A stretch of DNA of 64,000 nt. Source: Rhizobiales bacterium SYSU XM002 (lineage in GTDB: Bacteria > Pseudomonadota > Alphaproteobacteria > Rhizobiales > Beijerinckiaceae). Below are positions 816 to 30,203 of the stretch, in pieces (within the stretch, counting starts at the first letter, position 1; the number at the start of each line of letters is the position of its first letter). Where the stretch lies: the NCBI GenBank assembly GCA_009846685.1, contig VWVY01000002.1, positions 186,001 to 250,000 of the forward strand, given 5' to 3'. The translations under genes were made by a program, and so were the position numbers. The notes under the pieces are model-generated. The model worked only from the letters and a program-made list of their open reading frames with translations. It searched no databases and was not told the origin of the DNA.

Positions 816-942
816 TGAGCTTGTCCGTCCCAGCCGATGCCCGCCGTGCGGGCGACGGGGTTTATTCGCTCCGTGGGCACGGCAGGTCAAGTCAGGTCGC
901 GGGGCGGGGCGACCGTTTTTCAGTCAAGAGGCCCGTGCAGCA

Positions 943-2127: not shown

Positions 2128-2320
2128 CGGATCCTCGAAAGAATGGCATTTACAGCACCAATCTACTGCAACCCGCTGGCGCGGGGATTATTCCGGCGAG
2201 CGGGGAGACAGGCTCCACGACGCAGGCCCGGCCTTTGATGCGTCGCGTTTAGGCTTGCATTCCCGGGGGCATTGGTGTTCTACGGACGCCACCGAAAGCT
2301 GCCCGCAAGAGACTTTTGTG

Positions 2321-8019: not shown

Positions 8020-9005
8020 TCAGATGGCGCCGGCCAGCTTGCGGCGTTGTTCATCGAGAACCGCGCCAAGTGTCTCCTCAATCCGGTGGCAGGGTTTCCA
8101 GTCGAGACAAGCGCTTGCTTTCGACGAATCGCCCGCAAGGCGCGCAATCTCATTCGGGCGCCAGCGCGCGCTGTCCACATGTACTTCGATGTCGATGCCA
8201 GAAAGCCTGATCAGTGTGTCCAGAATGTTTCGCATCACGGTAGCGTTGCCCGAAGCAACATTAAGAACGGTGCCCGGATCGATTGATTCTGCACGAACAA
8301 GAGCCAGAGCATAGGCCCGGGCAACATCGCGAACATCAAGGAAGTCGCGCGCGGCTTCAAGATTTCCAACCGAGATCTTTGGAGCTTGCCGTTTCTGTTC
8401 GATCAGGGCGATCTGCGCCGCGAAACTCGGAATGGCGAATGCGGTGCTTTGCCCCGGACCGATATGATTGAACGGCCGGAAACGAATTGTCCTTAGACCT
8501 CGCGCCGCGAGGTAACCCAGTGCGAGATCTGCTGCAGCTTTAGTCGCGCCGTATTCGCTGATCGGCGAGAGCAGATGATCTTCGTTCAACAGCCCAGGTA
8601 AATTGGCGCTCGCGCCGTATACTTGGCAAGAACCGGCAAAAATGAATGTCGAACCTGGCGAATGGGTGTGCAGAGCGCGGGCAAAATTGAGCGTGCCCTC
8701 GACGTTGACCCGCCACGCCGCGGCGGGATCGGCTTGGCATGCCGCAAGATCGGAAATGCCGGCCAAATGCAGGATAGCATCGGGGCGGAGGTCCGCAACA
8801 AGGGCAGAAACGCTTTCTGTATCCGTAATATCGAGTGCAACAAGTTGGCCGACACCGGGGGCAAACCCCGCCTCGCGCCCTGTTGCGAGCACGTCGCAAG
8901 GGCGAGTTGAAACTGCTGCAAGAGCCTCGACGAAGTACGGCGCGACGAACCCGCCGCCGCCTGTCAGCAGCACGCGTCGAGGGCCGGTTGCGGCCGTCGT
9001 TGCCA

Positions 9006-9006
<1 letters not shown>
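8020..9006 (-). CDS. rmd: GDP-6-deoxy-D-lyxo-4-hexulose reductase (SDR family), GDP-D-rhamnose forming
   Basis: This extended SDR has an N-terminal LLTGGGGFVAPYFVEAL nucleotide-binding motif and a catalytic SEYGATK (YxxxK). RPFNHIGPGQ is typical of Rmd/RmlD-like reductases, and RDFLDVRDVARAY follows. It is about 328 residues. It directly follows gmd: ATG 9006 overlaps the gmd stop (TGATG), and a GTG at 9009 is the alternative start. Paired with Gmd it should reduce GDP-4-keto-6-deoxy-mannose to GDP-D-rhamnose. A GDP-6-deoxy-talose reductase or an epimerase cannot be excluded by eye. Confidence 0.78.
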
Positions 9007-10277
<1,271 letters not shown>

Positions 10278-11072
10278 CTAGAGGGAGTTGTAAATATCCA
10301 ACGCTAAATCGAGATCCTCGAAAACCTTGCCACGTCCAGCCTTGAGCACTAGCGCCTTGTCACAATAGCGACGGATGATCCCGACGTCATGACTGACAAG
10401 GATCATCGCGCAGTGCTTGCGTTTCACGAACAGTTCCTCATGACACTTGCGTTGGAAGCGCTGGTCGCCAACCGAGATGACCTCATCGATCAGGAAACAT
10501 TCAAAATCTACGGCGAGGGTCAACCCGAACGCGAGACGCGCGCGCATTCCAGACGAGTAGGTCCGCACTGGGAGCAGGAGGTGTTTGCCAAGTTCGGCGA
10601 AATCATCCACCAGTGCGATCGTCTCCTTGATCGGCACGCCGTAGGTACGTGCGATGAAGCGGATATTGTCCACGCCGCTCATCGAGACTTCAAAGCCTCC
10701 TGCAAAGGCAATCGGCCAGGACATAAACAATCCGCGGTGGATGGTGCCTGAAGTCGCCGGCTCGACGCCACCGATGATCTTCACCAGAGTCGACTTGCCC
10801 GCACCGTTCCGGCCAAGCACAGCGATTTTCTGGCCGGCGGAGATGTCAAACGAGACGTTATTGAGCACCCGGCGAATGCCGATGGGCGTATGGTAGTCTT
10901 TAACGATCCCGTCCAGGCGGATCGAACGCTGTTTCGTGCGGGGCGAAACAAAGCCGCCGGATGTCGTATATTCAACCGGCAGGCCAGCGATAGAGGCTTC
11001 CGCATGCCCGCCAACTCCGGGAATGACCGCTGGAACGTTTGATTGTCCGCCCGCTTGTCCGCCTGTGCTCAC
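10278..11072 (-). CDS. kpsT: Capsule export ABC transporter ATP-binding protein (KpsT/Wzt type)
   Basis: The cytoplasmic ATPase of a Kps-type capsular polysaccharide exporter. Walker A GRNGAGKST, signature YSSGMRARLAF, Walker B FECFLIDEV and the switch region LVSHDVGIIRRYCD are visible. The block FMSWPIAFAGGFEVSMSG is characteristic of the KpsT/CtrD/RkpT group. The most likely start is GTG at 11072, which overlaps the kpsE2 stop (GTGA), giving 264 residues. An ATG at 11126 would overlap kpsE2 by about 58 bp and adds unconserved residues. About 45 residues precede the conserved domain, longer than in KpsT. Confidence 0.9.
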   Translation of the reverse strand: MSTGGQAGGQSNVPAVIPGVGGHAEASIAGLPVEYTTSGGFVSPRTKQRSIRLDGIVKDYHTPIGIRRVLNNVSFDISAGQKIAVLGRNGAGKSTLVKIIGGVEPATSGTIHRGLFMSWPIAFAGGFEVSMSGVDNIRFIARTYGVPIKETIALVDDFAELGKHLLLPVRTYSSGMRARLAFGLTLAVDFECFLIDEVISVGDQRFQRKCHEELFVKRKHCAMILVSHDVGIIRRYCDKALVLKAGRGKVFEDLDLALDIYNSL

Positions 11073-12331
11073 GCTTGATGCTCCAGGACAATGTCGATCA
11101 GACTCTTGACGATCCAGTAGAAGCACAGGCTCAGAACGAGTACCGCGATGATGCTCAGCAAGCGACGCGGGCGGGTTGGCAGATCCGCAAAGTTGGGTTC
11201 AACAATCGTCTGGAGATAGATCCGTTGCGTTTGAGCGAACTGCCGCGAGCGCTCAAGTTCGATAATTGCGGCAGCCAGTCCTTTGGCTGCCAGCTCTCGC
11301 TCCAGTGTCAAGCGCTCGAACCCCTCAAGTTTCGAAGCAATCGAGTTCGCGCCGCCTGCGATGCTTTGGCGCTGTTTCTCGAGTTCAACCCTGAATGACT
11401 TGATCTTCTCGCGCATCGGCGTGATTGCAGGGCTGTCTGGTGTCTGCGCGAGTTGCTGCGCAAGGGCCGCCTCGAGACGCGAAATTTCGGTTGAGAGCTT
11501 CGCCAGAATCTCCATGGACGCTCCCGATTCCTTCTCGGGATTGAGGATCATCTCTTTGTCGCGGTATTGGGCGAGGCGTCGCTCAACATCCGCCAGGCGC
11601 GCGTTGCTTTCCTTGACGAGTGCTTCCGCGTAGGCAATCGAGTCGTTATGCGCGCGCACATTCAGCGTGTTGATGAATTCGTCGCTGTAGGCGATGACCT
11701 GCTTTGCGAGTGCCAAAGCATCCTCGGGTCGGTAGGCGCGTGTCATGAGCGTGCTGATGCCGGTCGAGGTGTCGACATCAATATCCACCAGCTTGAGATA
11801 CGCCTTATAGAGTTGTTCGGTATTGTCGCGCGAATGAAAATTCGGAAACCTGTTGAAGATGTCGGCTTCTGGGCGCGACATCAGGTCCCGCAAACCATTG
11901 TTCTTCTCAAGCTTTGCAGTGATATCGCGGGACGTCATGAATGCGCTCACCGCATAGGTCTCGTCCACCGCGCGTGACAAACCGGGTGTATGGAGAAGCG
12001 AAGAGAGCGTTGTGTCAGCTCCGGAAGACGCAGAGCGCACGATAAATTTGGTTTCGGAGACGTAGAGACCCGACGCGAGGATACCAAAATAGAGAATGCC
12101 CGCGAGCACGGGGAGTATGACCATGCCGATAAAGAGCCCGAACCGCTTGTAGAACGGTGCGACAGGCTCATCTTCGAAGTCGAAATCGGTTATATTGTCG
12201 CCAACTACCGCGCGACCGTCGACGCCCACAGGCGTGAGAAACATGCGCGTCGGCATCGGCGCGACGATGTCGTCGTCCCTCGCTTCCTGTTTGGCATGTC
12301 CAACTTCATTCGCCAAAGGTGTTGGCCTCAT
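11069..12331 (-). CDS. kpsE: Capsule export inner-membrane protein, KpsE/CtrB/RkpR family (copy 2)
   Basis: A polysaccharide co-polymerase type protein of the ABC-dependent capsule pathway, linking the inner-membrane transporter to the outer-membrane channel. The 420-residue protein starts at ATG 12331 (ATGA overlap with kpsM); an open frame up to 12958 merely overlaps kpsM. A cytoplasmic tail of about 65 residues, with an acidic FDFEDEP, precedes TM1 (LFIGMVILPVLAGILYFGI). A periplasmic region with YVSETKFIVRS and long coiled coil (about 200-370) follows, then TM2 near the C-terminus. It is clearly paralogous to copy 1 at 13158-14357, and its N-terminal tail is longer. Confidence 0.88.
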   Translation of the reverse strand: MRPTPLANEVGHAKQEARDDDIVAPMPTRMFLTPVGVDGRAVVGDNITDFDFEDEPVAPFYKRFGLFIGMVILPVLAGILYFGILASGLYVSETKFIVRSASSGADTTLSSLLHTPGLSRAVDETYAVSAFMTSRDITAKLEKNNGLRDLMSRPEADIFNRFPNFHSRDNTEQLYKAYLKLVDIDVDTSTGISTLMTRAYRPEDALALAKQVIAYSDEFINTLNVRAHNDSIAYAEALVKESNARLADVERRLAQYRDKEMILNPEKESGASMEILAKLSTEISRLEAALAQQLAQTPDSPAITPMREKIKSFRVELEKQRQSIAGGANSIASKLEGFERLTLERELAAKGLAAAIIELERSRQFAQTQRIYLQTIVEPNFADLPTRPRRLLSIIAVLVLSLCFYWIVKSLIDIVLEHQA

Positions 12332-13161
12332 CCCATTTTCACGTGCTGCTGGGCCTTGCGGATCAAGGGAAGCCCCAGAGCTGTCACCAGAACGCAGTTC
12401 ATCAGTACATAATTCAGATCCCAGACCGTCGCGAGCTTCGGCCCGAACAGACCGGCCCGGAACATCTCGAAAATATTGACCAGCACCGACCAGGTCACAA
12501 GTTTCTGTGCCGTTTCCGGCAGCCAGGTCACCATGTAGAAAGCACCGGTGATAGGGATGGAAATATACATGATCGGGCTGACGAAACGCTCTGCTGCTTC
12601 CGACAGTTCGGTAATGCCGGCGAGCAGCAGCCCGAACCCGAATGCGTACCAGGTCATCAGGAACCAGGCGCCGATCAACAGCAGCGGATCGTCCATGGGG
12701 TCGAACACGCCGAGCAGCGTCAACGGGAGGTAGGCGACGAAAAAGGCGGCAAGCCCACCGAGGCTCTCGAGCGCTGCGCGCGAGATCAGAATATCGAGAA
12801 AACGGACATTGCGATGGAACAACAGCCCGACATTCTGCCGCATCGCATGCACCGAGCGTATCACGCAGTGGCGCCACAGTGTGAGCATCGAATATCCGGT
12901 CAGCACAAAGGGAATGAGGCCAATATCCTTGCTGTGCGAGCCGCCTGTCATCGACCACATAATCATGACGCCGACGGTCAAAACTAACGGCTCGCCCATG
13001 ATCCAGAAGAATCCGAGGTTCTCGTGGCCGTAACGGGTCATGGCTTCGCGGATCATCAATGCTGAGATGATGCGGATCTGTACCGCCCCAGCCTCACGGA
13101 GACCACGTCGTCCACCGGTATAAGGGGAAGGCGGCGGCGGATGTTGCTCGGCGCCGCTCAT
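12328..13161 (-). CDS. kpsM: Capsule export ABC transporter permease (KpsM type, ABC-2 family)
   Basis: The permease subunit for capsular polysaccharide export, 277 residues with about six membrane segments. It matches KpsM/CtrC/RkpS: a cytoplasmic start, then MIREAMTRYGHENLGFFW, then TM segments with LRHxVxR-like RHCVIRSVHAMRQN. ISIPITGAFYMVTWLP and NIFEMFRAGLFG are near the C-terminus. It overlaps the kpsE copies on both sides by ATGA, so it is translationally coupled between them. An N-terminal Pro-rich stretch of about 20 residues is not conserved. It should pair with KpsT at 10278-11072. Confidence 0.9.
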   Translation of the reverse strand: MSGAEQHPPPPSPYTGGRRGLREAGAVQIRIISALMIREAMTRYGHENLGFFWIMGEPLVLTVGVMIMWSMTGGSHSKDIGLIPFVLTGYSMLTLWRHCVIRSVHAMRQNVGLLFHRNVRFLDILISRAALESLGGLAAFFVAYLPLTLLGVFDPMDDPLLLIGAWFLMTWYAFGFGLLLAGITELSEAAERFVSPIMYISIPITGAFYMVTWLPETAQKLVTWSVLVNIFEMFRAGLFGPKLATVWDLNYVLMNCVLVTALGLPLIRKAQQHVKMG

Positions 13162-14357
13162 TGGGCGTGTTCTCCGGCACCGACAGACAGGATCCAGATG
13201 ACTGCGAAAACCGCAAATCCCAGCACAAACACCGTAAAGATGCCGCGCAGCCGACGCGGCTCGGTCGCTTCGTCCGTGAGATGGGCTGCAACCACCTGCT
13301 CGATGTAGATGTGTTGGCGCCGTGCTTCCTGGCGCGCCACATCCAGCGACTTGAGTGCCGAGGCGAGGCTCTTCTCCGTCAGTTCACGTTTCAACGCCAG
13401 TTGTTCGTAAATCGCCATTTTACCCGAAAGAGAACTGTCCCCGCCAGCCAGTTTGGTTCGCTCTTCCTTAACCTTGTCCTCGAGAGTCGTGATTTTCGCC
13501 ACCATCGATGGAATTGCGGGATTGGCCGGCGAGTTAATCCTGAGCTCCTTGAGTTGGGCCGACGTAAAAGCGATTTCAGAGGAAAGTGTTGCGATGGTTT
13601 CGATAATGCCCAGCGATGATTTCGAGGGATCGATCATCAGCTCGCGATTTCGAAAAGCCGTCAATGCGGCTTGAGCCTCAATGATATTGCTCTCGGCCTG
13701 CCGGAGCTCTTTTTCAGCGACATCGATGACGTCGCGCTGGGCGCGGGCGTTCATCCGGTTGACCATTTCTTCGGCAAGCTTGATGAGCGCGCTTGCCACA
13801 TCGCGGGCGGAAACCGGATCGAATGAGGCAACCTTGAGCAAGGTAATGCCCTTGACGGAGTCTTCCGTAACGCTCACGCGATCAAGAAAGTAGTCGTACC
13901 GAGCTTCGACGGAATCCTTGCGCCAGAACCTCGGGTAGCGCGAGAGGAAATCAGCACTGGGGTGTCCGAAAATTTTCTCGATGGAGTAGCCGCGCTCCTC
14001 AAGCGCCCGGACCACATCGCGCGACTGAATATATTTCTGAACCGCATAGGCATCGTCGACAGTTCTCGACAGCCCGAAAGTGCGAAACAACATTTCAAGC
14101 CCGTTGGCCCGTTGGCTCGATACGCTCCTCACAATGAACTGCGCCTCGGAGGTATAGCGCGGTGCCGCGACCAGCCCATAGAAGATCGTTGCCAAGATGA
14201 CGGGCACAATCACCAGTGCGAGGAAGGACAGCCGCGTCAGGCTACTGCGGAACCGAAGCGCATTGACGTACGTTTCCGAGGCATCATAGGCGCCCCGCAC
14301 CACCTTCCTCGATGATGGAAGAAGACGCAGAAGTGCGGGCAGTAGCGGCGAACCCAT
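13158..14357 (-). CDS. kpsE: Capsule export inner-membrane protein, KpsE/CtrB/RkpR family (copy 1)
   Basis: A 399-residue KpsE-like protein with TM1 near residues 42-65 (LSFLALVIVPVILATIFYGL). It then has YTSEAQFIVRSVSS, LSRTVDDAYAVQKYIQSRD, a long heptad-rich periplasmic region (about 190-350) and TM2 at the C-terminus. Copy 2 shares the same landmarks (FIVRS, GLSR-VD--YAV, SRD, MI-P-K). The two are therefore paralogues flanking kpsM, possibly specialised or forming a mixed complex. It is the first gene of the kpsE-M-E-T set, starts at ATG 14357, and lies 180 bp after the protease stop. Confidence 0.87.
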   Translation of the reverse strand: MGSPLLPALLRLLPSSRKVVRGAYDASETYVNALRFRSSLTRLSFLALVIVPVILATIFYGLVAAPRYTSEAQFIVRSVSSQRANGLEMLFRTFGLSRTVDDAYAVQKYIQSRDVVRALEERGYSIEKIFGHPSADFLSRYPRFWRKDSVEARYDYFLDRVSVTEDSVKGITLLKVASFDPVSARDVASALIKLAEEMVNRMNARAQRDVIDVAEKELRQAESNIIEAQAALTAFRNRELMIDPSKSSLGIIETIATLSSEIAFTSAQLKELRINSPANPAIPSMVAKITTLEDKVKEERTKLAGGDSSLSGKMAIYEQLALKRELTEKSLASALKSLDVARQEARRQHIYIEQVVAAHLTDEATEPRRLRGIFTVFVLGFAVFAVIWILSVGAGEHAQ

Positions 14358-14537: not shown

Positions 14538-16769
14538 TCAGACAAAGATCCAGCCGCTGTTGGACATGTTCTGCAATGTGGAGAGCTGAGTGTCGTGGAA
14601 TGTGATGGTATTTCCGGACATTGTGAAAACAACGTCCGAGCCCTGTTGAACCATATGACCCAGCGCGTCGCCTGCAGTTGAAAATCCAAAACCAAGGAGT
14701 CGCAAGGAATCGAAGCCTTCGAAACCGTAGACATGATCAGCGCTGACGTCCGTCGCGTTAAAGACGAACATATCGGATCCACGACCGCCAGTGAGCGTGT
14801 CGTTTGCAGTGCCCCCCGTCAGTATGTCTTTCCACGTCGTCATCGTATTGCGCATGAAGTTGTCGAAGCTCGTGGCCATCAGATTGATGTGCTCCTGCGA
14901 CTCCGAAAAGCTCATGAACACATCCGCGCGCGATGTGCCGGATGAAAGTGCGCTAAGCCAGGAACTCAAGCCACCGGAATCAGGCGCACGGTTGAGGACA
15001 TTGTTGTAGAGCAGGGTGACGAACTGCGTGTCCGTCAAGGAATTGATGGAGCCGTAGGTATTTGTGAATTCAGCGGAATTCATGAAGGCATTGACCAGAT
15101 CCTTCATCTTGGCGCCGCCGTAGAAGGCATTGACCCAGTTCTCGAAACCGCCCGCATCGGCCTGCCTGTTGAACGCCGAATCATACATCCGGTAAACTTG
15201 ACCTGGGTGGACACGGATATCGCTGGCGTTCTTGAATTCCAGGCTCTCGGAAAATCCAAGAACGACCGCTTCGCGTGAAGTTCCGCTGTCCAGCATCGAA
15301 ACCCAGGATGCCAGACCGGAGGAGTCCGGAGCGCGTCCGAGAACGTTCTGGTAGAGAGTCGTGACGAACTGGGTGTTGTTCAAAGGACCATAGACGTTGC
15401 TGAACTCGGTGCTATTGATGAACCCGGTCGCGATCGATTGCAGAGATTGTCCGCCAGCAAGGCTCGCTTGCCAGTTCTGGTGCCCAGTATCATCGGGCGC
15501 GCGATTGAGCGTTGCGATGTAAAGACGTCGGACAGATTCGGCGTTGGTGTCCCACGTAACAGGGCCGTCGCCGATCAGGATGTCGATGCCGGAGCCGCCA
15601 TTCAGCGTATCCGCGCCCAAGCCACCCAGAAGCGTGTCGCTGCCGTTGTTGCCGTTCAGGACATTGTCAGCGGCATTGCCAGTGATTCTGTCGTTGCCGG
15701 AACCGCCATTCGCGTTCTCGATCAGCGAGCGCACGTCGCCGTTGTATTGCAGGGCGTTGAAGATGTTACCCGGTGCAAAGTGGCCGCTACCGAGGTTTGC
15801 GAGTTGCGTCGACGAGGTAATGGAGAAAGACCCGGGGTTCAGATTGACCGTGAGATTGGTGGTGTAGTTCGAGAAATCGTAGGTATCGACCCCGTTTCCA
15901 TCCCAGATCGTCATGAAGATGCGATTGCCACCAGGCGCACCCTGGCCAACGCCATTGATGAACATTTCGCCGGTCGTCGGGCTCCACGTGTAGGTGGTAT
16001 TGCCCGAATTGGTGTTGAAGTTCGCGCCATACATCGTCTGCAACGCCGCGATGTCATACATCATGAAGGTCTGGGCGTAGCCGTTGGTCTCGTTGGTGTA
16101 TCCCGTGGTCGGACCATTCTCGTAGCTTTTGTACGTCATGATGGAATAGGCCATCTGATCGTACTGCGACTGGAGCGCCGTGTTACCCGGCCCACCCGTT
16201 TCATGGCCATGCTTTAGACCGAGCGCATGACCCAGTTCGTGGATCGTCGTCGCCCAAGCATACTGGCCTTTGATCGGGTTCTGGTAGACTGTGTAGTCAG
16301 TGCCGTACCAGATGTCGCCGCCGCGGGTGCTGTTCGAGGGATAGTAGGCATAAGCCGTTGGATTGGCCTCAGCGGAGAAGGCCACACGCACGTCAGCCGT
16401 CGTCGTCGCGGGATCGACCTCCGTCGTGACCATGTTGGTGTATTGCGACAGCATGTTCATGGCTGCGCGGATCGCCGTTTTCACTGCTTCCGGCGCGGGG
16501 CTGAAGCCGTTTGTGGTCTCGTTGCCGTAGCCGCTCTCGTACTGCGAGGCCAGGGACGGGAAGGAATAGGTCAGGGTCGAGCCGGACCATTTGCTGCCCG
16601 AAAGGACACCATTGATGTTGACATTGCTGGTCGAACCCTGCGAGCCCCAACTGTTCGCACCGCCACCGCCATATTGCGGTACTTCATACGACGCGCCCGT
16701 TTCTGAGGCGGCGGAAACAGCGCCTGTGATCGGATAGGCGAGGGCGTTCTTAGCACAGATCTGGCACAT
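14538..16769 (-). CDS. Serralysin-like zinc metalloprotease (M10) with RTX repeats and DUF4214 domains
   Basis: A 743-residue secreted protease candidate. The zinc site is HELGHALGLKHGH (His177, Glu178, His181, His187), with the Met-turn YSIMTY at 209-213: the serralysin signature. A short RTX block (GGSGND, GGLGADTL, GGSGIDIL) spans about 355-400. Two or three DUF4214 units (RAPDxxG...W) fill about 408-640. A final RTX-like block (GGTANDTL, GGRGSDMFVF) and a hydrophobic C-terminus are as expected for type I export. There is no Sec signal; it begins MCQICAKN. It sits between the oxoamine synthase and kpsE1, and the PrtDE-like exporter at 28349-31526 probably secretes it. Confidence 0.9.
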   Translation of the reverse strand: MCQICAKNALAYPITGAVSAASETGASYEVPQYGGGGANSWGSQGSTSNVNINGVLSGSKWSGSTLTYSFPSLASQYESGYGNETTNGFSPAPEAVKTAIRAAMNMLSQYTNMVTTEVDPATTTADVRVAFSAEANPTAYAYYPSNSTRGGDIWYGTDYTVYQNPIKGQYAWATTIHELGHALGLKHGHETGGPGNTALQSQYDQMAYSIMTYKSYENGPTTGYTNETNGYAQTFMMYDIAALQTMYGANFNTNSGNTTYTWSPTTGEMFINGVGQGAPGGNRIFMTIWDGNGVDTYDFSNYTTNLTVNLNPGSFSITSSTQLANLGSGHFAPGNIFNALQYNGDVRSLIENANGGSGNDRITGNAADNVLNGNNGSDTLLGGLGADTLNGGSGIDILIGDGPVTWDTNAESVRRLYIATLNRAPDDTGHQNWQASLAGGQSLQSIATGFINSTEFSNVYGPLNNTQFVTTLYQNVLGRAPDSSGLASWVSMLDSGTSREAVVLGFSESLEFKNASDIRVHPGQVYRMYDSAFNRQADAGGFENWVNAFYGGAKMKDLVNAFMNSAEFTNTYGSINSLTDTQFVTLLYNNVLNRAPDSGGLSSWLSALSSGTSRADVFMSFSESQEHINLMATSFDNFMRNTMTTWKDILTGGTANDTLTGGRGSDMFVFNATDVSADHVYGFEGFDSLRLLGFGFSTAGDALGHMVQQGSDVVFTMSGNTITFHDTQLSTLQNMSNSGWIFV

Positions 16770-17175: not shown

Positions 17176-18525
17176 TCAGGCTTTGCCGAGTCCGGCTCCC
17201 GCCAACAGGCTGCGCGCACTGACATCCTTCACGTCGTCCATGATCTCTGCCACGGCATCTACCACGGCATCTATCTGTTCATCGCTGTGTGTCGCATTGA
17301 TGAAGAAGCGCAGTCGAGCCGATTTTTCCGGCACGCCCGGTGGCAGGATCGGGAAAGCATTGAAGCCGCGAGCCCGCAGCCGCTCCGAAAGCACCAGCGT
17401 GCGGACGGTCTCGCCGACAATGACCGGAATGACCGCATAGCCCCACGCATCGCCGGTATCGAGACCCTTGGCCTTGGCACGGGCAAGAAACCGCTGGCTC
17501 TGCCGCTGGAGCCGCGCGACGCGCTCCGGCTCGGCGTTCATAATCTCGAGCGCCTTGGCGGAGGCAGCGGCGACCGAAGCCGGCATGCCGACGCTATAGA
17601 CGAAGCCCGGCGCGTGGCACTTGAGCAGATCGACGAGCACCGCACTGCCCGCGACATAGCCGCCACAACCGACGAGGGTTTTGGAGAGCGTGCCGAACCA
17701 CAGGTCGACCTCGCCGGGCGCCACGCCCTGATGCTCGAACAGGCCTCGCCCGCGCGTCCCGAGCACGCCGAGGGCATGGGCATCGTCCATCAGCAGCCAG
17801 GCGCCATATTTCTTCTTGATCGCGACGAGCCGTGCGAGATCGGGGCCGTCTCCGTCCATGGAGAAGAGTCCCTCGGTGGCGATGAGGCAGCGTTCGAATC
17901 GTCCACGCTCCGCTTCGAGCAGCCTTTCGAGGGCATCGAGATCATTGTGCGGGTACAACCGACGCGCTGCGCCCGACAGCTGGGCCCCCACGACGATGCA
18001 GTTATGGATCAGCGCGTCGTGGACGATAAGGTCTTTCGGCCCAACCAGTGTGGCAACCGTCGAAACGCCGGCCGCATGCCCAGAATTGAAGGCGACGCAA
18101 TCCTCTGCCTCGTAGTTATGGGCAAGGCCGGTCTCGAGATCGCGATGCACCCTACGCTCTCCGGCGCTGATCCGGGATGCCGCGACGGAGGTGCCGAAGT
18201 CCCGCAGCGCGGCGCCGGCCGCTTCGAGCACGGCAGGATGGCCGTTGAGCCCGAGATAGTCGTAGGAAGCAAAATTGGTGAGCGTCCGGCCACCGATCAG
18301 CGCCTCGGCGCCTGATCTGCCCTCGTGCAGCCGGTAGTACGGCACGTCGAGGTCAGCGAAGCGGGCGAATTCGCGCTGGAATCGGATCTGCTGGTACTGC
18401 GGCAGGGTCTCGAAGGCGGTGTCGTAGCTGCGTTGCGGCGTGGCAACTCGGGCAGGAGCCTTGCCTGGCATTTGCTTCATCAGGGAGAGGATCTTGTCGA
18501 CATCCTTTCCGCTTCCGCTGCTCAC
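17176..18525 (-). CDS. rkpG: Alpha-oxoamine synthase, RkpG type (AONS/KBL/SPT family)
   Basis: A PLP enzyme of the family that condenses an acyl thioester with an amino acid, losing CO2, to give an alpha-amino ketone. The 449-residue protein has an N-terminal extension of about 65 residues, then NFASYDYLGLNGHP, AFNSGHAAG, LLMDDAHALGVLG (Asp/His near 247-250) and the PLP lysine Lys282 in GTLSKTLVGCGGY. It overlaps the PKS gene by ATGA. In the Sinorhizobium meliloti rkp-1 region, rkpG likewise follows rkpA and is required for K-antigen. Biotin synthesis (BioF) is unlikely, as no other bio gene is present. The amino-acid partner is unknown. Confidence 0.82.
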   Translation of the reverse strand: MSSGSGKDVDKILSLMKQMPGKAPARVATPQRSYDTAFETLPQYQQIRFQREFARFADLDVPYYRLHEGRSGAEALIGGRTLTNFASYDYLGLNGHPAVLEAAGAALRDFGTSVAASRISAGERRVHRDLETGLAHNYEAEDCVAFNSGHAAGVSTVATLVGPKDLIVHDALIHNCIVVGAQLSGAARRLYPHNDLDALERLLEAERGRFERCLIATEGLFSMDGDGPDLARLVAIKKKYGAWLLMDDAHALGVLGTRGRGLFEHQGVAPGEVDLWFGTLSKTLVGCGGYVAGSAVLVDLLKCHAPGFVYSVGMPASVAAASAKALEIMNAEPERVARLQRQSQRFLARAKAKGLDTGDAWGYAVIPVIVGETVRTLVLSERLRARGFNAFPILPPGVPEKSARLRFFINATHSDEQIDAVVDAVAEIMDDVKDVSARSLLAGAGLGKA

Positions 18526-21500
18526 CCGTGTTTTCTCCCGCTGACCTTGAGATTCTCGCCGATCGCTTGCGCTTCTTCGACGCTGAACTCCCCGCCACCA
18601 TGCATGCCCGACACGGCCATAACAAGGCCCGTGTCGGCGTTGTTGTCGCTATCCTCGCTCCGGCCGTCCGGCACCAGAGACGACAGGATCAGCCCTGCGA
18701 TGTCACCCAGTCGACGGTCGCTGGCACCGACCAGCGGTACATCGGTGCCGGCAAGGCGTTCGATCGAGAGCTGGAGTTCGAGCGCCATCAGCGAATCCAA
18801 GCCCAGTTCTCCAAGCGGACGCGAGGTATCGATCTGGTCTTCGGCCATGCGAAGGATATGCGAAATCTCGCGCTTGAGCGCCAGCACGATGAGCGCGATG
18901 GCATCGGGATGGCTCTTGCCCTCGATCGCCGAGAGGAGATCACCACCCTGATCGCCCTCGTCTTCGCGTCGGGCGAGTCCCAGACCGGCGAAGGCCGCGC
19001 TGTTGATGAGCCGGAGCTTTTCCGCCGCCGCGCCGGGGGAGATATTGGTGTAGAACTGCATTGGCCCGACGTCGTTGCCCGAGGCAAGCAGCCGCCCCAG
19101 ATGCGCAAGTGATTCGGTCGAGGAGATTCCGACGACGCCGGTCGTGCGGCGCAATCGGCGGCCAAGTTGCTTGTCGCGCGCGATGATGCCGACATCCGAG
19201 ATCGCACCCCACCCGATCGCGAGCGCCGGTTTGCCTTGCGCACGCCGCTCGCGGGCAAAGCCCTCAAGCCAGGCGTTCGCGGCAACGTAGGCTCCCTGTC
19301 CTGGGCTGCCGATGACCGTGGTGGCTGACGAATAGACCACAAAGTAGTCGAGCGGTTGGTCCGCACAGGCGGCATCGAGATTGAGCGCGCCGCGCAGTTT
19401 CGGAGCGAGTACAGCTCGCAGCCGGTCTGGCTCGAGACTGGAGATCATGCCGTCTTCCAGCAGAACCGCAGCATGGATGACGCCGCGCACCGGACCGTGC
19501 TCGCGCGCGAGGCGTTCGACGAGCGCTTGGACCGCTGCCGCATCGGAAACATCCAGCGCTTCGATGAGCACTCGCGCGCCGGAAGCGCGCAACGCTTCGA
19601 TCTCGCTCTCGAGGCCCTCCTCGACCCTTCCCCGCCGCGAGGCCAATACGACCGTGCCCGCGCCCTTCCGCGCGAGCCATGCGCCGGACGCGAACCCGAG
19701 ACCGGACGTGCCGCCGATGACGATGTGCACACCGTCACGCGGCTTGAATTCGAGCGCGGAGGCATCCCGCGACGCGAGTCGCGCGGGGCGGATAACGATC
19801 TTGCCCACATGCTCCGAGGCCTGCATGAGCCGGAAGGCCGCGCCGATCTCATGGGCCTCGAACACGCGATGGGGCAGGGGCTTGAGTTCGCCCCGGGCGA
19901 ACTGTTCCGAGATGTGCTGCATCATCTGCTCGACCAGCTTGCGGTCGTGGGCGAGCAGCTCGTCGAGATCGATGCCGAAATAGGCGATGTTGCGCACGAA
20001 GGGGCGCAGACCGAGCTGGGTGTTGTCAAGATAATCGCGCTTACCCAGTTCCGCGAACCGCCCGAAGGGCTTCACCAGCCGGAAGCTCGCCTCCATCGCC
20101 GCACCGGCGAGGGAATTGAGAACGACATCGACGCCCCCAAGTTCGTTGCGGATCGCCTCGGCGAAACGCTCCTGGCGCGAATCGTAGGTCAGATCCGCGC
20201 CCATCGCGCGCGCAATCGTGCGGCGTTCGTCGCTGCTCGCGGTAGCAATCGCTCGCGCCCCCGCAAGCTTGGTGAACTGGATCGCGGCCAGTCCGACAGC
20301 GCCCGCGCCGCCGTGGATCAGCACATCGTCGCCCGGCCCGATCTGCGCGCGCTTGACGAGCGCGAACCAGGCGGTCGCGAAGGCGACGGGGATCGTCGCG
20401 GCAGCCTCGAGGCTCACCCCTTCCGGCACCTTGAAGAAATGCCAGCCCGGCGAGACGAGGTGCGAGGCGAAGGTATCGGCGGCAAAGCCCATTACCCTGT
20501 CGCCCGGCGCAAGATGCGTCACGCCCGTGCCAACACGGGTGACGGTGCCCGAGCACTCGAAACCGAGAGCGGCGGCCGTGAGGCCTGCGCCGAGAAGATC
20601 GTCGTCGAGAATGCCGAGGCCGACGAGAATATCCCGGAAATTGAGGCCGACAGCCGCAACCTCGATTTCGATCTCGCCGTCATCGGGCGCGCGGCGCGGT
20701 GCCTTGACCCAGGCGAAACTGTCGAGGCGTCCGGCCTGCTCGAACCGCAGCACCGCGCGTTCTTCCGCGCCGATGGGCGCGGGCGGGAACAGATTGCGAC
20801 GCATGCGGTAGGCTGAAACGCCCTCCCGGTCGACGAACAGTTCGAGTTCCATGCCGCCATAGCCGAGCAGCGATTCAATCGCCGCACGCGCGGCACCGTC
20901 ATCGAGAGCGCTTGCAACCTCGACAAGACGGAAATCGACGTTCGGCATCTCGTTGATCGCGACACGCAGGAAGCCCCAGACGCCGCTCGCGACCGATGAG
21001 GGATGAAGGTCGTCGTCGTGGCCGCCGCGCACGCAGACCTGAACACGCGTGGTGCTGCCTGCCGCGTCGAGTGCCTCGCCGATCGCCTTGATCGCCTCGA
21101 CATGGCGCGCCAGGGCTTCGAGCGTCTCCATGCCGGTCCGTGCGACCGGATAGACGATATGGGCAGGAAGCTGTCCCGCCGCAATCACTCGCGCGAGTGC
21201 CGCCGCAAGATCGGCGTCCGCCGGAAGCTGCGCGAGCGCGCCGTCCTTCAGCGCCTTGCCCCAAGCCTGGTCTTCTCCGCCGATAAGAAGGTATCCCGCT
21301 TCCGGGGAGGGGGCTTCGGCAGCCTGTTCCGGTTCGATGACCGGGGCTGCGAATTCTGCCGCCAGCAACGCGCCAAGGCCATCGGCAGCGCGGCGAGACG
21401 TAACCTCTTGGGCGCCAAAACGTTCAATCGCTTCGATCGTCGCGGATTCGGCGGGAATGCTGGCGATTCCCTGTTCTCCCGTTCGCGGTTCGCCGAACCA

Positions 21501-24500
21501 GCCAGCCCACCAGCCTAGCAGGAAATCGAGTGTCGCATCCGCACCCGGTTGTGCGACGAAAAGCTGCGCCTTTTCGCGCAACAGGCCACGCAGCGCTTCG
21601 GGGATATCGCCAGCCCCGCCGATCGGCGCAGTGGCCATCGCGACCAGTGCGTCAAAATGCAGGGGCGACGCAAGCGACACGGCAGATTCGAGATCAAGGT
21701 ACTCAATCTCGGGGTCTAGCCGGCCTTGAGCGCGCGCTGTGTCTATCGATTTGCGATCGGGCATCGCGAGCGTAAGTTCAACGGTGCCCGCCTGCACGAG
21801 TGGCGTCAGTGCCTTGAGCAGCCCGGCGCTCCAAGGCTGGACGGCGACAATACGCGGTTTGCGCCCGACAGCATGCGCCAGCGTCGATATCGCCTCGCGC
21901 AGGGCTTCAACAGCGCCGCGCGTGAGCATGCCATTCGCTTCGATCTGGTCGGCGAAGGAAGCGGGTACGTTGAGCCTTCCCCCGCTCGCCAGCAGACGAG
22001 GGGCATGGCTGAGTGCGCTCGCTGCGAGGCGAATTTCGAGATTTGCCTCGGGGAAACCGTTCGTCAGTGCAGCGAGAATTTCTTCCGGCGCGGGCAATGG
22101 GCAATCCGGTACGACATGGTTGTCCTGAACGAGTTCGACCCCGTCGAGAACGACCAGCGCCGCTTCCAACGGCGCGCGAGAGTTCGCGGCAATCATTCCG
22201 GACGCAATCGCGCCATCGATGTCGATCTGTGCCGTGCCGAAAACACCTCCAAGCAGGCGATGTGCGAGCGAAACCGAGAACGCGCGCGTCACCATCCACG
22301 CCGGGGGGATTTCGGCGTCCGGCGCGGCCTTCAGAAAAGCTTGAATCGCGGGAGCGAGCGTCGGGGCCGTCGGCGGTGAAAGCGGGAAGGTTTCGAGCCG
22401 GAACGTCCGATCGGCAAGGGTAGCCTTGCCGAGATAGAGTGCACGCAGGACGGCCGCTTCCACCGTTGCGACGATCTGGTCATCGGCGTCGAATAGATTG
22501 ATCGCAACCGTCTTGAACCGATCGGTTTCATGGGTCAGCAGCGTAATCGAGCTGCGGACGGTCGCGCCGGGGCGCCAGACGCAGACCTTGCGGAAACGCG
22601 TTGGCAGATGTGCCTTGCGTTCGCCTTCCTTCTGCGGTCGTGAGATGAAAAGCCCGTGGAAGGCCGCATCGAGCGAAATTGGGTTGAGGATGTGAAGATC
22701 GGCAAACGCGCCGAGGCCTTCCGGGTCAGGAGTCGCGAGTTGCGAATGAGCCGTCACGTCGTCGCGCGCGTTCGCGGTCACGAGTTGGAACATCGGACCA
22801 TAGTCGAGACCGGCAAGCGTCGCTTGCTCGTACACCTGTCGCGGTGTGTCGTTCACGGTGCATTCGGGCACAGGCGGCGCGAGCGGCGCCGGGGGCTGGC
22901 CGGTTGCGATACCGATCTTGCCACGGGCATGCAGCAGCCATTCGCTCGCGGAGAACCGCTTGCGGCTCCAGATCTCGATGGTGTCAGTGCTCTCGGCGAA
23001 GCGGGTCGAGAGCTCCCGGATCTCGTCCTGGGCGATTGCGAGTGCCTTGAGGACATCGAAATCGTCCAGTTCGAACGGCTTGTCGCCGAACAGGTCGCGC
23101 GCGGCGGCAAGCGCGATCTCGATCAGTCCCGCTGCCGGAACAATCACACCGCCATCGACGCGATGGTCGTCAAGATACGGCACAATGACCGGATCAATGA
23201 GGTTGCGCCATTCAGGCGAACCGTCGGCCATGCGGGCGCCGAGCAGGGGATGGCGCCGCGCCGAAAGATTGAGCTTGCCAAAGGCATTGAGCGCTTCCGG
23301 CGTGTCCGGCAGGGCGAAGCTCTGCCGCTGGAACGGATAGCCCGGCAGGTCGACGCCCTCGACGGCTTCGCCACAGACCACCTCACGGTCGAAATCCGCA
23401 CCGTGCGCAATGAGACGGGCAATCGTCAGACCAACGGGATCCGCAGTTTCCTTCTGGGAAAGCGAAGGGAGGGTCGTGCCTTCGACGCCCTTATCACGCA
23501 GGTTTTCGGCGATAGGACCGGTGAGGATCGCGCGTGGGCTGATCTCGACATAGATCTTGCCGCTGGCATCCGCAACGGTCTCAAGCGCCTGCTGGAACCG
23601 CACGGGTTCGCGAATGTTGCGCCACCAGTACTCCGCCTCCAGGCTCTCGCCCGGCACCTTCTCGCCGGTCACCGCCGAATAATAGGGCACGGTGCCGGGG
23701 CTCGCCTTGAGGAAGGCGAGGTCGGCCAGCATCGCTTCGCGCAACGGATCGAGCTTCGAGCAGTGGAACGGATAATCGATGTCGAGCGCGATGGTTGCGA
23801 CACGCGCCTTGCGGCAATGGCGGGCGAAGGCTTTGAGGGTTTCCGCCTCGCCCGAGAGCGTCGTCGAGGTCGCGCTGTTGGTGGCGGCGATCTCGATTCC
23901 CGGTTCGCCGAAACCGGCCAGCAACTGCTCGACCTGCGTGCTGTCGGTCGCGACGACCATCATCCGTCCGAGACCTCGGACACCTTCTTGGTGTTTCGAT
24001 CGCAGATAGATGAGCCGCACAGCATCAGCGCGGCTCAGGATACCACTCGCCTCGGCGGCTGCGACTTCGCCCACCGAATGGCCGATCGTCGCGGCAGGCC
24101 GGATGCCAACCTCGGCAAGGCAGCCGACGAGAGCCGACTGGATGGCGTAGATCAGCGGCTGCGAAACCGAGGTCTTCTGCAATTCCTCCGCCTCGATCGG
24201 TGCGCGGAGCTTGTCGATGATCGACCACCCGGCGAGCGGCTCGAAAAGGGCGTCGATTGCCGCGATCTGGGCGCGGAATCCCGCGTCGCCTGCGTAGGCT
24301 GAATGCCCCATCTCGGAGAACTGGCTGCCATTGCCCGAAAACACGAAAACAACCGGACTGGCACCGTTTCTCGCGACGCCGGCGGCAAAGGTCTCGCCCT
24401 CATGTTCGCCTGCGGCAAGCGCCTCGACCGCCGTCGAGAGGTGTTCGCGGCCCGACATGGGAACAACAAAACGATGGGGCAGCAGATCGCGGCCGTGGCC

Positions 24501-25976
24501 GAGTGCGGCGCTAATCGCGTTTGGCGATACGCCTGAGGCGACAGCATCACGCACCGCTCCAGCGAGTTGCGTCAGTGCGCCAGAATCGGCGGCAGAAACC
24601 ACGAGATGCCGAGCCTTCCGGCGCTGCAACTGCTGCTCCGGGCGTTTCCGCGCCGCGCGCACGAGGACATGCGCGTTGGTGCCGCCAAACCCGTAGTTGC
24701 AGATGCCGGCGTAATCTCCGTCCCGCGCAAGATCGAGCGGAAGAGAAGCGTCGTTTGGCTTCAGATTCAGGGCGGAGAAGTCGATGGCGTCGTTGGTCTC
24801 TTCAAGAAAGAGGGACTTCGGCAACTCCCGATGTTCGAGCGCCATCAACGACTTGAGTAGACCTGCCAGCCCGGAGGCGGCCTCGAGATGGCCGATGTTG
24901 GACTTGATCGAACCGATCGGTAGCGGTTTGCTGCGCTTCTGCCCGAGCGCATGGCCGATCGCGGTCGCCTCGATGGGGTCGCCGACTTTTGTGCCGGTCC
25001 CGTGGGCTTCGACGAAAGCGAGATCATCCGGCGAAATGCCGGCGCCTGCGTAAAATCGTTCCAGAAGCGCTTTCTGCCCCTCCAGCGAGGGGAGGGAGAT
25101 CCCGGTGGTGCGACCGTCAGAGTTCACCGAGGCGCCGACGACATAACCTCTTACGCGCCGCCCCAGCGAATCCGCCTCCGCGCTGCGTTGAAGCACGAGC
25201 ACAACCGCACCTTCGGAACGGACATACCCATCTGCCTTGGCGGAAAACGGGCGCGAGAGCCCGGTCGGCGACAGCATCCGCGCTTGCGAAAAGCCGATGA
25301 ACGGCACGGGAGAAAGCAGCAGGTTGACCCCGCCGACGACGGCCAGCTCGATCCGCCCTTCAGCGAGCGCGTCGATTGCCTGCTTGAGGCCGACGAAGGA
25401 CGACGAGCAGGCGGAATCGACCGTGAAGCTCGGACCCTTGAAATCAAAGACGTAGGAAATGCGGTTCGACAGGATCGACAATGAATTGCCGGTCATGAAG
25501 TGGCTTTCCATGACAGCCGGGTCGTGGGATGCCGTGCCCTGATAGTCGACCATCGAGGCGCCGACATAGACGCCGACATTGCGACCGGCCAGCGTCGAGG
25601 GCGGAATGCCGGCATCCTCGAGCGCTTCCCAGGTCACTTCCAGCAGAAGGCGCTGCTGCGGGTCCATCTGCTGCGCCTCGCGCGGCGAAATGCCGAAGGG
25701 CGCGGGATCGAAGGCGAGGGGATTGTCGAGATAGCCACCGGCGAAGGTATAGGCAAAACCGGGTTCGGGATTCCCCGGCCGCAGGAAACGCTCGATGCTC
25801 CACCGCCCGCGCGGGCGGGCGCTCACACTGTTGCGGCCCTCGGTGAGCAATTGCCAGAGTTCACGTGCGCTGTTGGCCCCCGGCAGACGGCAAGCGGCGC
25901 CGATAACGGCGGCTCCGGCTTCCGGTTCGGGCGCAGTAAAACTCGTCTTCATCTCAACAATTTCGAACTTCTGCAT
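18522..25976 (-). CDS. rkpA: Fully reducing type I polyketide/fatty-acid synthase, RkpA type
   Basis: A single-module synthase of 2484 residues, close to S. meliloti RkpA. Domains in order: KS (about 20-440; Cys190 in DSACSSS, His325, His363); AT (about 540-840; Ser634 in GHSVGE, His738); DH (about 905-1185; His938 in HxxxGxxxxP, Asp1103); a central region without a clear methyltransferase motif (1200-1740); ER (about 1745-2065; GGAGAVG); KR (about 2080-2300; GGTSGLG, Ser2217, Tyr2230); and ACP (Ser2395 in LGLDSL). There is no thioesterase, so release probably uses the oxoamine synthase. The start is ATG 25976 or 25952 (MKTSF). Products of this class are probably saturated chains for the capsule lipid. 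Confidence 0.9.
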   Translation of the reverse strand: MQKFEIVEMKTSFTAPEPEAGAAVIGAACRLPGANSARELWQLLTEGRNSVSARPRGRWSIERFLRPGNPEPGFAYTFAGGYLDNPLAFDPAPFGISPREAQQMDPQQRLLLEVTWEALEDAGIPPSTLAGRNVGVYVGASMVDYQGTASHDPAVMESHFMTGNSLSILSNRISYVFDFKGPSFTVDSACSSSFVGLKQAIDALAEGRIELAVVGGVNLLLSPVPFIGFSQARMLSPTGLSRPFSAKADGYVRSEGAVVLVLQRSAEADSLGRRVRGYVVGASVNSDGRTTGISLPSLEGQKALLERFYAGAGISPDDLAFVEAHGTGTKVGDPIEATAIGHALGQKRSKPLPIGSIKSNIGHLEAASGLAGLLKSLMALEHRELPKSLFLEETNDAIDFSALNLKPNDASLPLDLARDGDYAGICNYGFGGTNAHVLVRAARKRPEQQLQRRKARHLVVSAADSGALTQLAGAVRDAVASGVSPNAISAALGHGRDLLPHRFVVPMSGREHLSTAVEALAAGEHEGETFAAGVARNGASPVVFVFSGNGSQFSEMGHSAYAGDAGFRAQIAAIDALFEPLAGWSIIDKLRAPIEAEELQKTSVSQPLIYAIQSALVGCLAEVGIRPAATIGHSVGEVAAAEASGILSRADAVRLIYLRSKHQEGVRGLGRMMVVATDSTQVEQLLAGFGEPGIEIAATNSATSTTLSGEAETLKAFARHCRKARVATIALDIDYPFHCSKLDPLREAMLADLAFLKASPGTVPYYSAVTGEKVPGESLEAEYWWRNIREPVRFQQALETVADASGKIYVEISPRAILTGPIAENLRDKGVEGTTLPSLSQKETADPVGLTIARLIAHGADFDREVVCGEAVEGVDLPGYPFQRQSFALPDTPEALNAFGKLNLSARRHPLLGARMADGSPEWRNLIDPVIVPYLDDHRVDGGVIVPAAGLIEIALAAARDLFGDKPFELDDFDVLKALAIAQDEIRELSTRFAESTDTIEIWSRKRFSASEWLLHARGKIGIATGQPPAPLAPPVPECTVNDTPRQVYEQATLAGLDYGPMFQLVTANARDDVTAHSQLATPDPEGLGAFADLHILNPISLDAAFHGLFISRPQKEGERKAHLPTRFRKVCVWRPGATVRSSITLLTHETDRFKTVAINLFDADDQIVATVEAAVLRALYLGKATLADRTFRLETFPLSPPTAPTLAPAIQAFLKAAPDAEIPPAWMVTRAFSVSLAHRLLGGVFGTAQIDIDGAIASGMIAANSRAPLEAALVVLDGVELVQDNHVVPDCPLPAPEEILAALTNGFPEANLEIRLAASALSHAPRLLASGGRLNVPASFADQIEANGMLTRGAVEALREAISTLAHAVGRKPRIVAVQPWSAGLLKALTPLVQAGTVELTLAMPDRKSIDTARAQGRLDPEIEYLDLESAVSLASPLHFDALVAMATAPIGGAGDIPEALRGLLREKAQLFVAQPGADATLDFLLGWWAGWFGEPRTGEQGIASIPAESATIEAIERFGAQEVTSRRAADGLGALLAAEFAAPVIEPEQAAEAPSPEAGYLLIGGEDQAWGKALKDGALAQLPADADLAAALARVIAAGQLPAHIVYPVARTGMETLEALARHVEAIKAIGEALDAAGSTTRVQVCVRGGHDDDLHPSSVASGVWGFLRVAINEMPNVDFRLVEVASALDDGAARAAIESLLGYGGMELELFVDREGVSAYRMRRNLFPPAPIGAEERAVLRFEQAGRLDSFAWVKAPRRAPDDGEIEIEVAAVGLNFRDILVGLGILDDDLLGAGLTAAALGFECSGTVTRVGTGVTHLAPGDRVMGFAADTFASHLVSPGWHFFKVPEGVSLEAAATIPVAFATAWFALVKRAQIGPGDDVLIHGGAGAVGLAAIQFTKLAGARAIATASSDERRTIARAMGADLTYDSRQERFAEAIRNELGGVDVVLNSLAGAAMEASFRLVKPFGRFAELGKRDYLDNTQLGLRPFVRNIAYFGIDLDELLAHDRKLVEQMMQHISEQFARGELKPLPHRVFEAHEIGAAFRLMQASEHVGKIVIRPARLASRDASALEFKPRDGVHIVIGGTSGLGFASGAWLARKGAGTVVLASRRGRVEEGLESEIEALRASGARVLIEALDVSDAAAVQALVERLAREHGPVRGVIHAAVLLEDGMISSLEPDRLRAVLAPKLRGALNLDAACADQPLDYFVVYSSATTVIGSPGQGAYVAANAWLEGFARERRAQGKPALAIGWGAISDVGIIARDKQLGRRLRRTTGVVGISSTESLAHLGRLLASGNDVGPMQFYTNISPGAAAEKLRLINSAAFAGLGLARREDEGDQGGDLLSAIEGKSHPDAIALIVLALKREISHILRMAEDQIDTSRPLGELGLDSLMALELQLSIERLAGTDVPLVGASDRRLGDIAGLILSSLVPDGRSEDSDNNADTGLVMAVSGMHGGGEFSVEEAQAIGENLKVSGRKHG

Positions 25977-30202: not shown

Positions 30203-30203
30203 C

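Follow-up and report, generated by a model that had tools for sequence, protein, structure and literature searches.

A polyketide synthase-oxoamine synthase pair in a Rhizobiales capsule locus as a candidate source of a sphingoid capsule anchor

In fumonisin synthesis (Fum1/Fum8) an oxoamine synthase releases the chain of a reducing polyketide synthase (PKS), and a PKS-independent bacterial ceramide pathway uses serine palmitoyltransferase (SPT) and ceramide synthase. The rhizobial K antigen requires the fatty-acid-synthase-like rkp-1 cluster, according to the titles of the original studies (Petrovics 1993, Kiss 1997), and the available portion of a review ascribes to rkp-1 the synthesis and modification of a particular lipid carrier used in K antigen secretion (PMC4881576); an earlier note on this DNA states that rkpA and rkpG are needed for K antigen; a settled rkp-1 product was not found in the literature searched. 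In Pseudomonas fluorescens MYb115, PfSgaA and PfSgaB make very-long-chain sphinganines from serine, for which PfSgaB has a strong preference, and 6101 homologous clusters were counted by the same authors (Peters et al. 2025, PMC12134224); the main text, in the sections available, mentions neither rkp, wcb, capsule nor polysaccharide. The sphingoid product of such pairs is thus already published and is no new discovery, the capsule connection being the addition made here. Among described starting lipids, KpsS adds Kdo to (lyso-)PG (PMC7694667, in excerpt) and the Vi capsule is anchored by an acylated N-acetylhexosamine (PMC12220298); the excerpted text of the latter, a 2025 review of capsule attachment, does not mention sphingolipid, rhizobia or polyketide, and full-text searches covering few subscription papers returned no published link between PKS-oxoamine synthase sphingoids and capsule anchoring.

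The window analysed here is a stretch of 64,000 nucleotides (C8:186001-250000) of Rhizobiales bacterium SYSU XM002, whose genome of 3.46 Mb in 15 contigs is given as 100% complete. Its genes of interest are given below with their left-hand neighbours, for which negative positions lie outside the window.

-7363..-6626, plus strand: PseF-like cytidylyltransferase, off-window, preceding the 711-aa protein
-6607..-4475 (L188:13393-15525), plus strand: 711-aa remote KpsC-like protein, off-window, same contig
-4475..-3711, plus strand: CDP-alcohol phosphotransferase, off-window, same contig
-3714..-2863, minus strand: SDR, off-window, same contig
-2844..-1681, minus strand: KpsD/Wza-like protein, off-window, same contig
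-1476..-574, minus strand: LpxL-like acyltransferase, off-window, same contig
1..816, minus strand: cytochrome P450, 5' part in the window, extending left to -602
2111..3742, plus strand: ManC-like mannose-1-phosphate guanylyltransferase/mannose-6-phosphate isomerase
6680..7975, minus strand: GT4 glycosyltransferase, of a cluster that adjoins the CDP-alcohol phosphotransferase or the PKS in several related loci
8020..9009, minus strand: NAD-dependent sugar epimerase/dehydratase (NCBIfam)
9006..9989, minus strand: GDP-mannose 4,6-dehydratase, gmd (NCBIfam)
10278..11126, minus strand: KpsT-like ABC ATPase (Pfam, NCBIfam), real start codon probably more internal
11069..12331, minus strand: second KpsE-like protein, 34% identical to the first, without Pfam match
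12328..13161, minus strand: KpsM-like ABC-2 permease (Pfam; NCBIfam score under cut-off)
13158..14357, minus strand: KpsE-like inner-membrane export protein, BexC/CtrB/KpsE family (NCBIfam score under the model cut-off)
14538..16769, minus strand: secreted M10/serralysin-like RTX protein with four DUF4214 stretches (Pfam)
17176..18525, minus strand: PLP alpha-oxoamine synthase (AOS; RkpG/SgaB-like), 449 aa, GTG start (Pfam, PDB search, alignment)
18522..25976, minus strand: iterative type I PKS (RkpA/SgaA-like), 2484 aa (Pfam, alignment)
26258-27334 and 27331-28284, plus strand: divergent GDP-mannose dehydratase and epimerase (Pfam)

The PKS-AOS pair indeed lies 5' of capsule export genes, as the earlier note had stated: KpsE-, KpsM- and KpsT-type genes follow on the same strand, with the RTX/DUF4214 protein separating the AOS from KpsE. 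Counting the off-window KpsD-type gene, all four export types expected of a group 2 (ABC-dependent) capsule locus are present, the KpsE and KpsM scores falling under their NCBIfam cut-offs, while no KpsC/KpsS beta-Kdo transferase (PF05159), the other expected component, scores over the Pfam cut-off in the window genome. Nine of ten loci examined within the genus have the RTX/DUF4214 protein or its sister cluster (clusters 19 and 33) 3' of the AOS, and a divergent ABC exporter and HlyD pair is found at 28349-31526. A description of the genome as wholly without a Kdo-type initiator is weakened by the off-window 711-aa protein, whose sole PDB matches are KpsC (E 0.009-0.08). Profile comparison relates it to KpsS with a probability of only 52 (E 1.4e-4) and to KpsC with a probability of 8.9; its homologue in relative G008 is barely over the PF05159 cut-off (23.8 bits, E 7e-6), and it occurs in 2 of 61 relatives (the window genome and G008) with a partial match in G009. 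It is possibly a divergent nonulosonate or Kdo transferase.

Pfam resolves the PKS into KS, AT, DH (PS-DH and PKS_DH_N), ER (ADH_N and zinc-binding), KR and ACP domains and detects no thioesterase in it. We aligned 84 PKSs, 81 of them distinct (the window's, 81 neighbourhood rows over 2350 aa, and those of S. meliloti and a Pseudomonas plasmid), and found KS C190/H325/H363, AT S634, DH H938/D1103, KR S2217/Y2230 and ACP S2395 unchanged in 84/84, the lone exception among the tested positions being the ER nucleotide motif, kept in 82/84. The tail following the ACP serine spans 46-104 aa across the alignment, too short for a thioesterase. The complete, catalytically intact and thioesterase-less synthase described in the earlier note is thereby borne out, and it has the single-module KS-AT-DH-ER-KR-ACP organisation that characterises RkpA-RkpG/SgaA-SgaB pairs. 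The AT carries a YPFH motif, typical of malonyl-type ATs, and the residues around 1377 resemble a degenerate methyltransferase, such decay leading us to expect an unbranched chain.

The AOS is encoded on the same strand as the PKS and shares four bases with it (GTGA). Its Lys282 aligns with the PLP lysine of SPTs and, together with His174, Asp247 and His250, is invariant in a nine-sequence alignment, in agreement with the overlapping Lys282 enzyme of the earlier note; S117, likewise invariant in the nine, aligns with the functional serine of the SPT A-G-S-R stretch. The top two PDB matches are SPTs (E 6.8e-60), followed by KBL-type enzymes (1.9e-55) and, also close behind, a cysteate acyltransferase. 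Among the SPT, BioF and KBL models of NCBIfam the AOS exceeds no cut-off shown, the top model being bioF (351.9 bits against the TIGR00858 cut-off of 426) and the best SPT equivalog score 268.6 bits against cut-offs of 500-670, and we therefore regard it as SPT-like in action without classing it as an SPT equivalog. A tree of 115 AOS rows, built by a quick method, separates with support 100 four SPT-like rows of PKS-less loci from the other 111, nearly all of which come from PKS-AOS loci and which include the AOSs of S. meliloti and the Pseudomonas plasmid, so that the adjacent, co-directional window AOS shares a clade with the AOS at the RkpG position and that of Pseudomonas. The asserted kinship to S. 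meliloti RkpA/RkpG is upheld by this clade and by identities of 36% for the PKS and 48% for the AOS; against the Pseudomonas plasmid pair the values are 33% and 51%. The closest named matches to the window AOS, among the matches listed, are Rhizobiales/Beijerinckiaceae MAG records. By analogy with PfSgaA/PfSgaB, a sphingoid product of the window pair is likely. Elsewhere, an AOS match lies within the annotated PKS of a Planktothrix plasmid (L238) and within a 1607-aa protein of a Streptomyces plasmid (L237), and natural fusions of this kind would favour direct chain hand-over; a fusion considered in relative G046 was rejected, as the PKS frame, in a long open frame, ends before the AOS match.

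The earlier note found no RkpH-like SDR adjacent and allowed that the keto group might stay or be reduced elsewhere; the left flank corrects this. A pair-associated Bosea SDR used as query retrieved C8:182307-183131 with 288 bits, other SDRs reaching at most 80, and this SDR of the pair-associated cluster sits 2.9-3.7 kb left of the window edge, so that the ketone need not remain. Its best PDB match is TSC10, with the unrelated clavulanic acid dehydrogenase just 1.3 bits behind, and RkpH and the Pseudomonas SDR have best PDB matches other than ketosphinganine reductase. The P450 at the window's left edge is the only one of the genome (PF00067), and the motifs FAVGPRICPG (P450), YAPGK (SDR), HTGNWE (acyltransferase) and DSLDGNLAR (CDP-alcohol enzyme), presumably diagnostic of these enzymes, are intact. 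Relative G015 has the same SDR-KpsD-LpxL-P450 row, but with KpsS, and a HerA-type ORF in between, at the place that the CDP-alcohol gene takes in the window genome.

Similar arrangements occur in more distant records. In S. meliloti, a divergent KpsD-type gene is followed by PKS, AOS, SDR, an unannotated gene and a PF05159 (KpsS-type) protein, an order that fits rkpU-A-G-H-I-J, gene names being assigned by order (PMC7902896, in part); the record is labelled pSymB but at 3.72 Mb could perhaps be the chromosome. The unannotated gene at the RkpI position encodes a PF00884 protein with four hydrophobic stretches whose best PDB match is a phosphoglycerol transferase (E 4e-9). Gene neighbourhoods were examined in 7 of 14 plasmid records with an AOS: the five proteobacterial ones (S. 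meliloti, Pseudomonas, Caballeronia, Paraburkholderia, Shinella) all hold PKS, AOS, SDR and capsule genes together and also carry a PF00884, LTA-synthase-family or alkaline-phosphatase-family protein, and those of Streptomyces and Planktothrix have no nearby gene annotated as capsule. In two Burkholderiaceae (L234:13913-14839, L235:13905-14819) a UDP-3-O-acyl-GlcN deacetylase (LpxC-like) is annotated between PKS and AOS. The MYb115 SDR locus number equals that of the AOS plus five steps of five (PMC12134224, in the text available); the Pseudomonas plasmid has the same PKS/AOS/SDR locus-number spacing with a capsule gene between, from which analogy we infer that the MYb115 cluster would be a capsule locus.

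A scan of AOS neighbourhoods covered at least 590 stretches and 580 relatives, from which the best 80 of at least 580 loci were analysed, a selection that biases the set to close kin and Methylobacterium and to which all counts out of 80 refer. A PKS match is present in 78/80 and absent at L091 and L135, both near contig edges. Its C-terminal part aligns and ends less than 600 bases before the AOS in 71/80; the PKS lies on the far side of the AOS in L104 and L120, just 166-278 PKS residues align in L086, L092, L107 and L160 (contig-end or partial alignments), and in L118, L128, L136, L141 and L158 only the N-terminal half aligns at the settings used, although the ORF list has a full-length PKS before the AOS, with one gene intervening in L141. 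At least one of KpsC/S, D, E, M and T accompanies the AOS in 36/80 loci, at least one of SDR, LpxL-like, P450, CDP-alcohol and GNAT-like genes in 39/80, both kinds together in 22/80 and sulfation genes in 11/80; 26/80, some with shortened flanks, have no scored capsule, lipid or sulfation neighbour. Restricting the set to the 54 loci of at least 19 kb leaves 30 with kps and 34 with lipid genes. Random 20-kb control regions (20, drawn from 8 genomes, 6 from one) held kps genes in 0/20 and a lipid gene in 1/20, a weak LpxL match. Among 61 related genomes including the window's, with AOS called at E up to 1e-100, AOS is found in 19, a KpsE-like protein in 21 and both in 16, so that KpsE-like proteins occur in 16/19 genomes with and 5/42 without AOS (p 7e-8, the genomes being related); within the genus, AOS is present in 12/17 and KpsE-like in 11/17, all 11 inside the 12. 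The kps linkage of RkpA-RkpG pairs, which the earlier note proposed to survey across genomes, thus lies above chance, both in the 80 loci against the random regions and in the genomes.

The choice of initiating enzymes appears to alternate among AOS carriers. KpsC/S is found in 14/61 genomes at E up to 1e-20 (18/61 at E up to 0.001) and the CDP-alcohol enzyme in 8/61, each of which carries an AOS linked to a PKS or else an SPT-like enzyme at E up to 1e-60 (p 2e-4, ignoring kinship). Strong KpsC/S matches occur in 11 and the CDP-alcohol enzyme in 6 of the 19 AOS genomes with no overlap (p 0.001, ignoring kinship), the corresponding figures for the AOS genomes of the genus being 8, 4 and 0 (p 0.002, likewise ignoring kinship). 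The exclusion depends on the cut, since G008 holds both a KpsC-like and a CDP-alcohol protein once weak matches at E up to 0.001 count, and it loses significance over all 61 genomes (p 0.18). In the 80 loci, KpsC/S (21) and CDP-alcohol or GT4 (18) never overlap (p 0.002, ignoring kinship), CDP-alcohol alone giving p 0.058; the AOS tree has at least seven switches between the two states over 40 labelled rows including the window's, and independent contrasts on it yield three pairs, about 1.8 opposite and 0 same, which is not significant. A GNAT-like protein, a putative ceramide synthase that matched no family model, stands beside the SPT-like AOS in four PKS-less loci of relatives and occurs in 4/80 PKS-AOS loci as well. 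In two relatives (G025, G033) that have an SPT-like enzyme with a GNAT-like neighbour, and in which no PKS-linked AOS reaches E 1e-100, genes for a CDP-alcohol phosphotransferase, KpsD and GT4 lie together (L226, L227); the capsule head-group set may work on ordinary ceramide as well.

The window genome holds a second PKS-AOS pair (C9:1-31000, L010/L012; 47% and 65% identity), whose neighbours include GT4, a 262-aa protein, an LpxL-like acyltransferase, a methyltransferase, a fatty acid hydroxylase (PF04116), a Stf0-type sulfotransferase, CysNC and CysD; Bosea loci have similar gene sets. From these genes its product is perhaps sulfated and glycosphingolipid-like. The 262-aa protein resembles a sulfotransferase by a motif in its invariant stretches, a reading for which Pfam, NCBIfam and PDB profile searches gave no support.

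We propose, with somewhat better than even confidence, that the window pair makes a sphingoid base serving as capsule lipid anchor. The PKS would iterate to a fully reduced long acyl chain on the ACP. The AOS would free this chain by decarboxylative condensation, most likely with serine as the amino acid, to a 3-ketosphinganine-like amine whose ketone the off-window SDR would reduce; the LpxL-like acyltransferase and the P450 would modify the sphingoid base, the CDP-alcohol phosphotransferase would add a phospho-head group, and a glycosyltransferase would begin the polysaccharide on this lipid. KpsM/T, KpsE and KpsD would then export the lipid-linked polysaccharide, with the sphingoid lipid as membrane anchor or primer. 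What the analysis shows are the genes, their motifs and neighbourhoods and their co-occurrence; the substrate at the window, the order of the tailoring steps and the attachment of the lipid to the polysaccharide we infer. In S. meliloti and Pseudomonas an equivalent role would be filled by the phosphoglycerol transferase with KpsS/KpsC: phosphoglycerol-sphinganine would, like lyso-PG, be a one-chain phosphoglycerol lipid and hence a plausible substitute KpsS acceptor, and in the window type the CDP-alcohol enzyme and GT4 would stand in for phosphoglycerol transferase and KpsC/S. The long-chain sphingoid-like product of the earlier note stands in part: pairs of like architecture make sphinganines in Pseudomonas (PMC12134224, in the portion available), and the amino ketone it named need not persist given the SDR. 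Against a sphingoid capsule anchor stand the AOS scores below every NCBIfam cut-off shown, with bioF on top, the 26 of 80 loci with no scored neighbour, the Streptomyces and Planktothrix records without a capsule-annotated gene nearby, the two of 80 loci in which the PKS is not 5' of the AOS, the narrow lead of TSC10 as SDR match, the different best matches of RkpH and the Pseudomonas SDR, and the five genomes with a KpsE-like gene and no pair.

That the AOS is simply an enzyme of biotin or threonine metabolism with a PKS neighbour by accident, as the top NCBIfam score of bioF might hint, is hardly credible given the PKS match at 78 of the best 80 of at least 580 loci, the four-base overlap and a Planktothrix record in which PKS and AOS are annotated as a single protein. 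Use of glycine, alanine or cysteate in place of serine, which would yield a 1-deoxy or sulfono base, is improbable rather than negligible: KBL and cysteate acyltransferase rank not far below SPT among the PDB matches and bioF is the nearest NCBIfam model, but SPTs match best, S117 is invariant in nine sequences and corresponds to the A-G-S-R serine, and the nearby phospho-head-group enzyme would require a 1-hydroxyl. The strong serine preference of PfSgaB in the available text also argues for serine (PMC12134224).

With a sphingoid base as the probable product, its role may differ from the one proposed. A free membrane sphingolipid, either an outer-membrane lipid or a secreted signal merely encoded beside and co-regulated with the capsule, is the more serious of two unlikely options. 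In MYb115 the sphinganines occurred as free lipids, to which a host effect was ascribed (PMC12134224, sections available), the second pair on C9 neighbours sulfation genes, an LpxL-like acyltransferase and glycosyltransferases with no kps-cluster gene in the stretch examined, the Streptomyces and Planktothrix records lack a nearby capsule-annotated gene, and the same tailoring genes could serve such a lipid. In Bacteroides, inositol (sphingo)lipid genes are tied to capsule expression by regulation: losing inositol lipid production changes capsule expression, which the authors, in the excerpt available, credit to inositol phosphate and not to an anchor (PMC9246714). Against this stand the linkage and co-occurrence of the pair with kps genes, the swap between head-group enzyme and KpsC/S among AOS-bearing genomes, and the need for S. 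meliloti rkp-1 genes in K antigen production (PMC4881576 in part; study titles). Somewhat less probable again is a transient carrier or primer for synthesis and export, cleaved off so that the mature capsule bears no sphingoid; it agrees with the lipid carrier for secretion that the partial review text ascribes to rkp-1 (PMC4881576), but the annotated locus genes include no recognisable dedicated cleavage enzyme, and one would hardly expect a short-lived carrier to be tailored by a P450 and an acyltransferase.

If the preferred reading of a sphingoid capsule anchor is true, it would add a further kind of lipid to capsule anchors beside lyso-PG/Kdo and Vi, and would join rkp-1 to the 2025 sphinganine chemistry by a definite predicted step for each rkp-1 gene, placing a sphingolipid at the base of the capsule. 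The prediction concerns carriers of the pair in soil and in association with plants and animals, and can be tested by mass spectrometry and by mutants of kinds already in use. More tentatively, and with rather less than even confidence, we suggest a whole Gram-negative capsule class built on PKS-made sphingolipids with two interchangeable starts; the MYb115 lipids reported to protect the host would then be anchor intermediates. In one start (S. meliloti rkp-1, Pseudomonas, Burkholderiaceae), a phosphoglycerol transferase would make a lyso-PG look-alike to which KpsS adds Kdo; in the other (the window, Bosea, some Beijerinckiaceae), the CDP-alcohol phosphotransferase and GT4 would act on an acylated, hydroxylated sphingoid.

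Compared with known systems, the fumonisin analogy drawn in the earlier note is apt as chemistry and ends there, Fum1/Fum8 making a fungal secondary metabolite without capsule context and the window being a bacterial capsule locus, so that the mechanism is analogous and the class is not shared. The PKS-independent ceramide pathway has sphingoid chemistry in common with the window pair, but the tree separates the four SPT-like rows, which come from loci without a PKS, from the clade of PKS-linked AOSs with full support; the one of the four that was scanned also scores below the SPT cut-offs. The E. coli group 2 capsule, started on (lyso-)PG by KpsS and KpsC, has KpsM/T/E/D-type export in common with the window locus; the window genome differs in having no KpsC/KpsS over the Pfam cut-off. 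PfSgaA/PfSgaB and SgaC of MYb115 are a monomodular reducing PKS, AOS and SDR as at the window (PMC12134224, text available), PfSgaA/B being taken as homologues by architecture and identities being measured against the Pseudomonas plasmid pair; that plasmid's cluster, spaced like that of MYb115, has LTA-synthase-type and capsule genes too, while the window differs from this type by its CDP-alcohol phosphotransferase, P450 and LpxL-like acyltransferase and by the absence of ordinary KpsC/S. Finally, S. meliloti rkp-1, a K-antigen locus, shares with the window locus the PKS-AOS pair, SDR and KpsD; rkp-1 has a phosphoglycerol-transferase-like gene and KpsS, neither of which is present in the stretch of the window locus examined, and the window locus has instead a CDP-alcohol enzyme and a remote KpsC-like protein.
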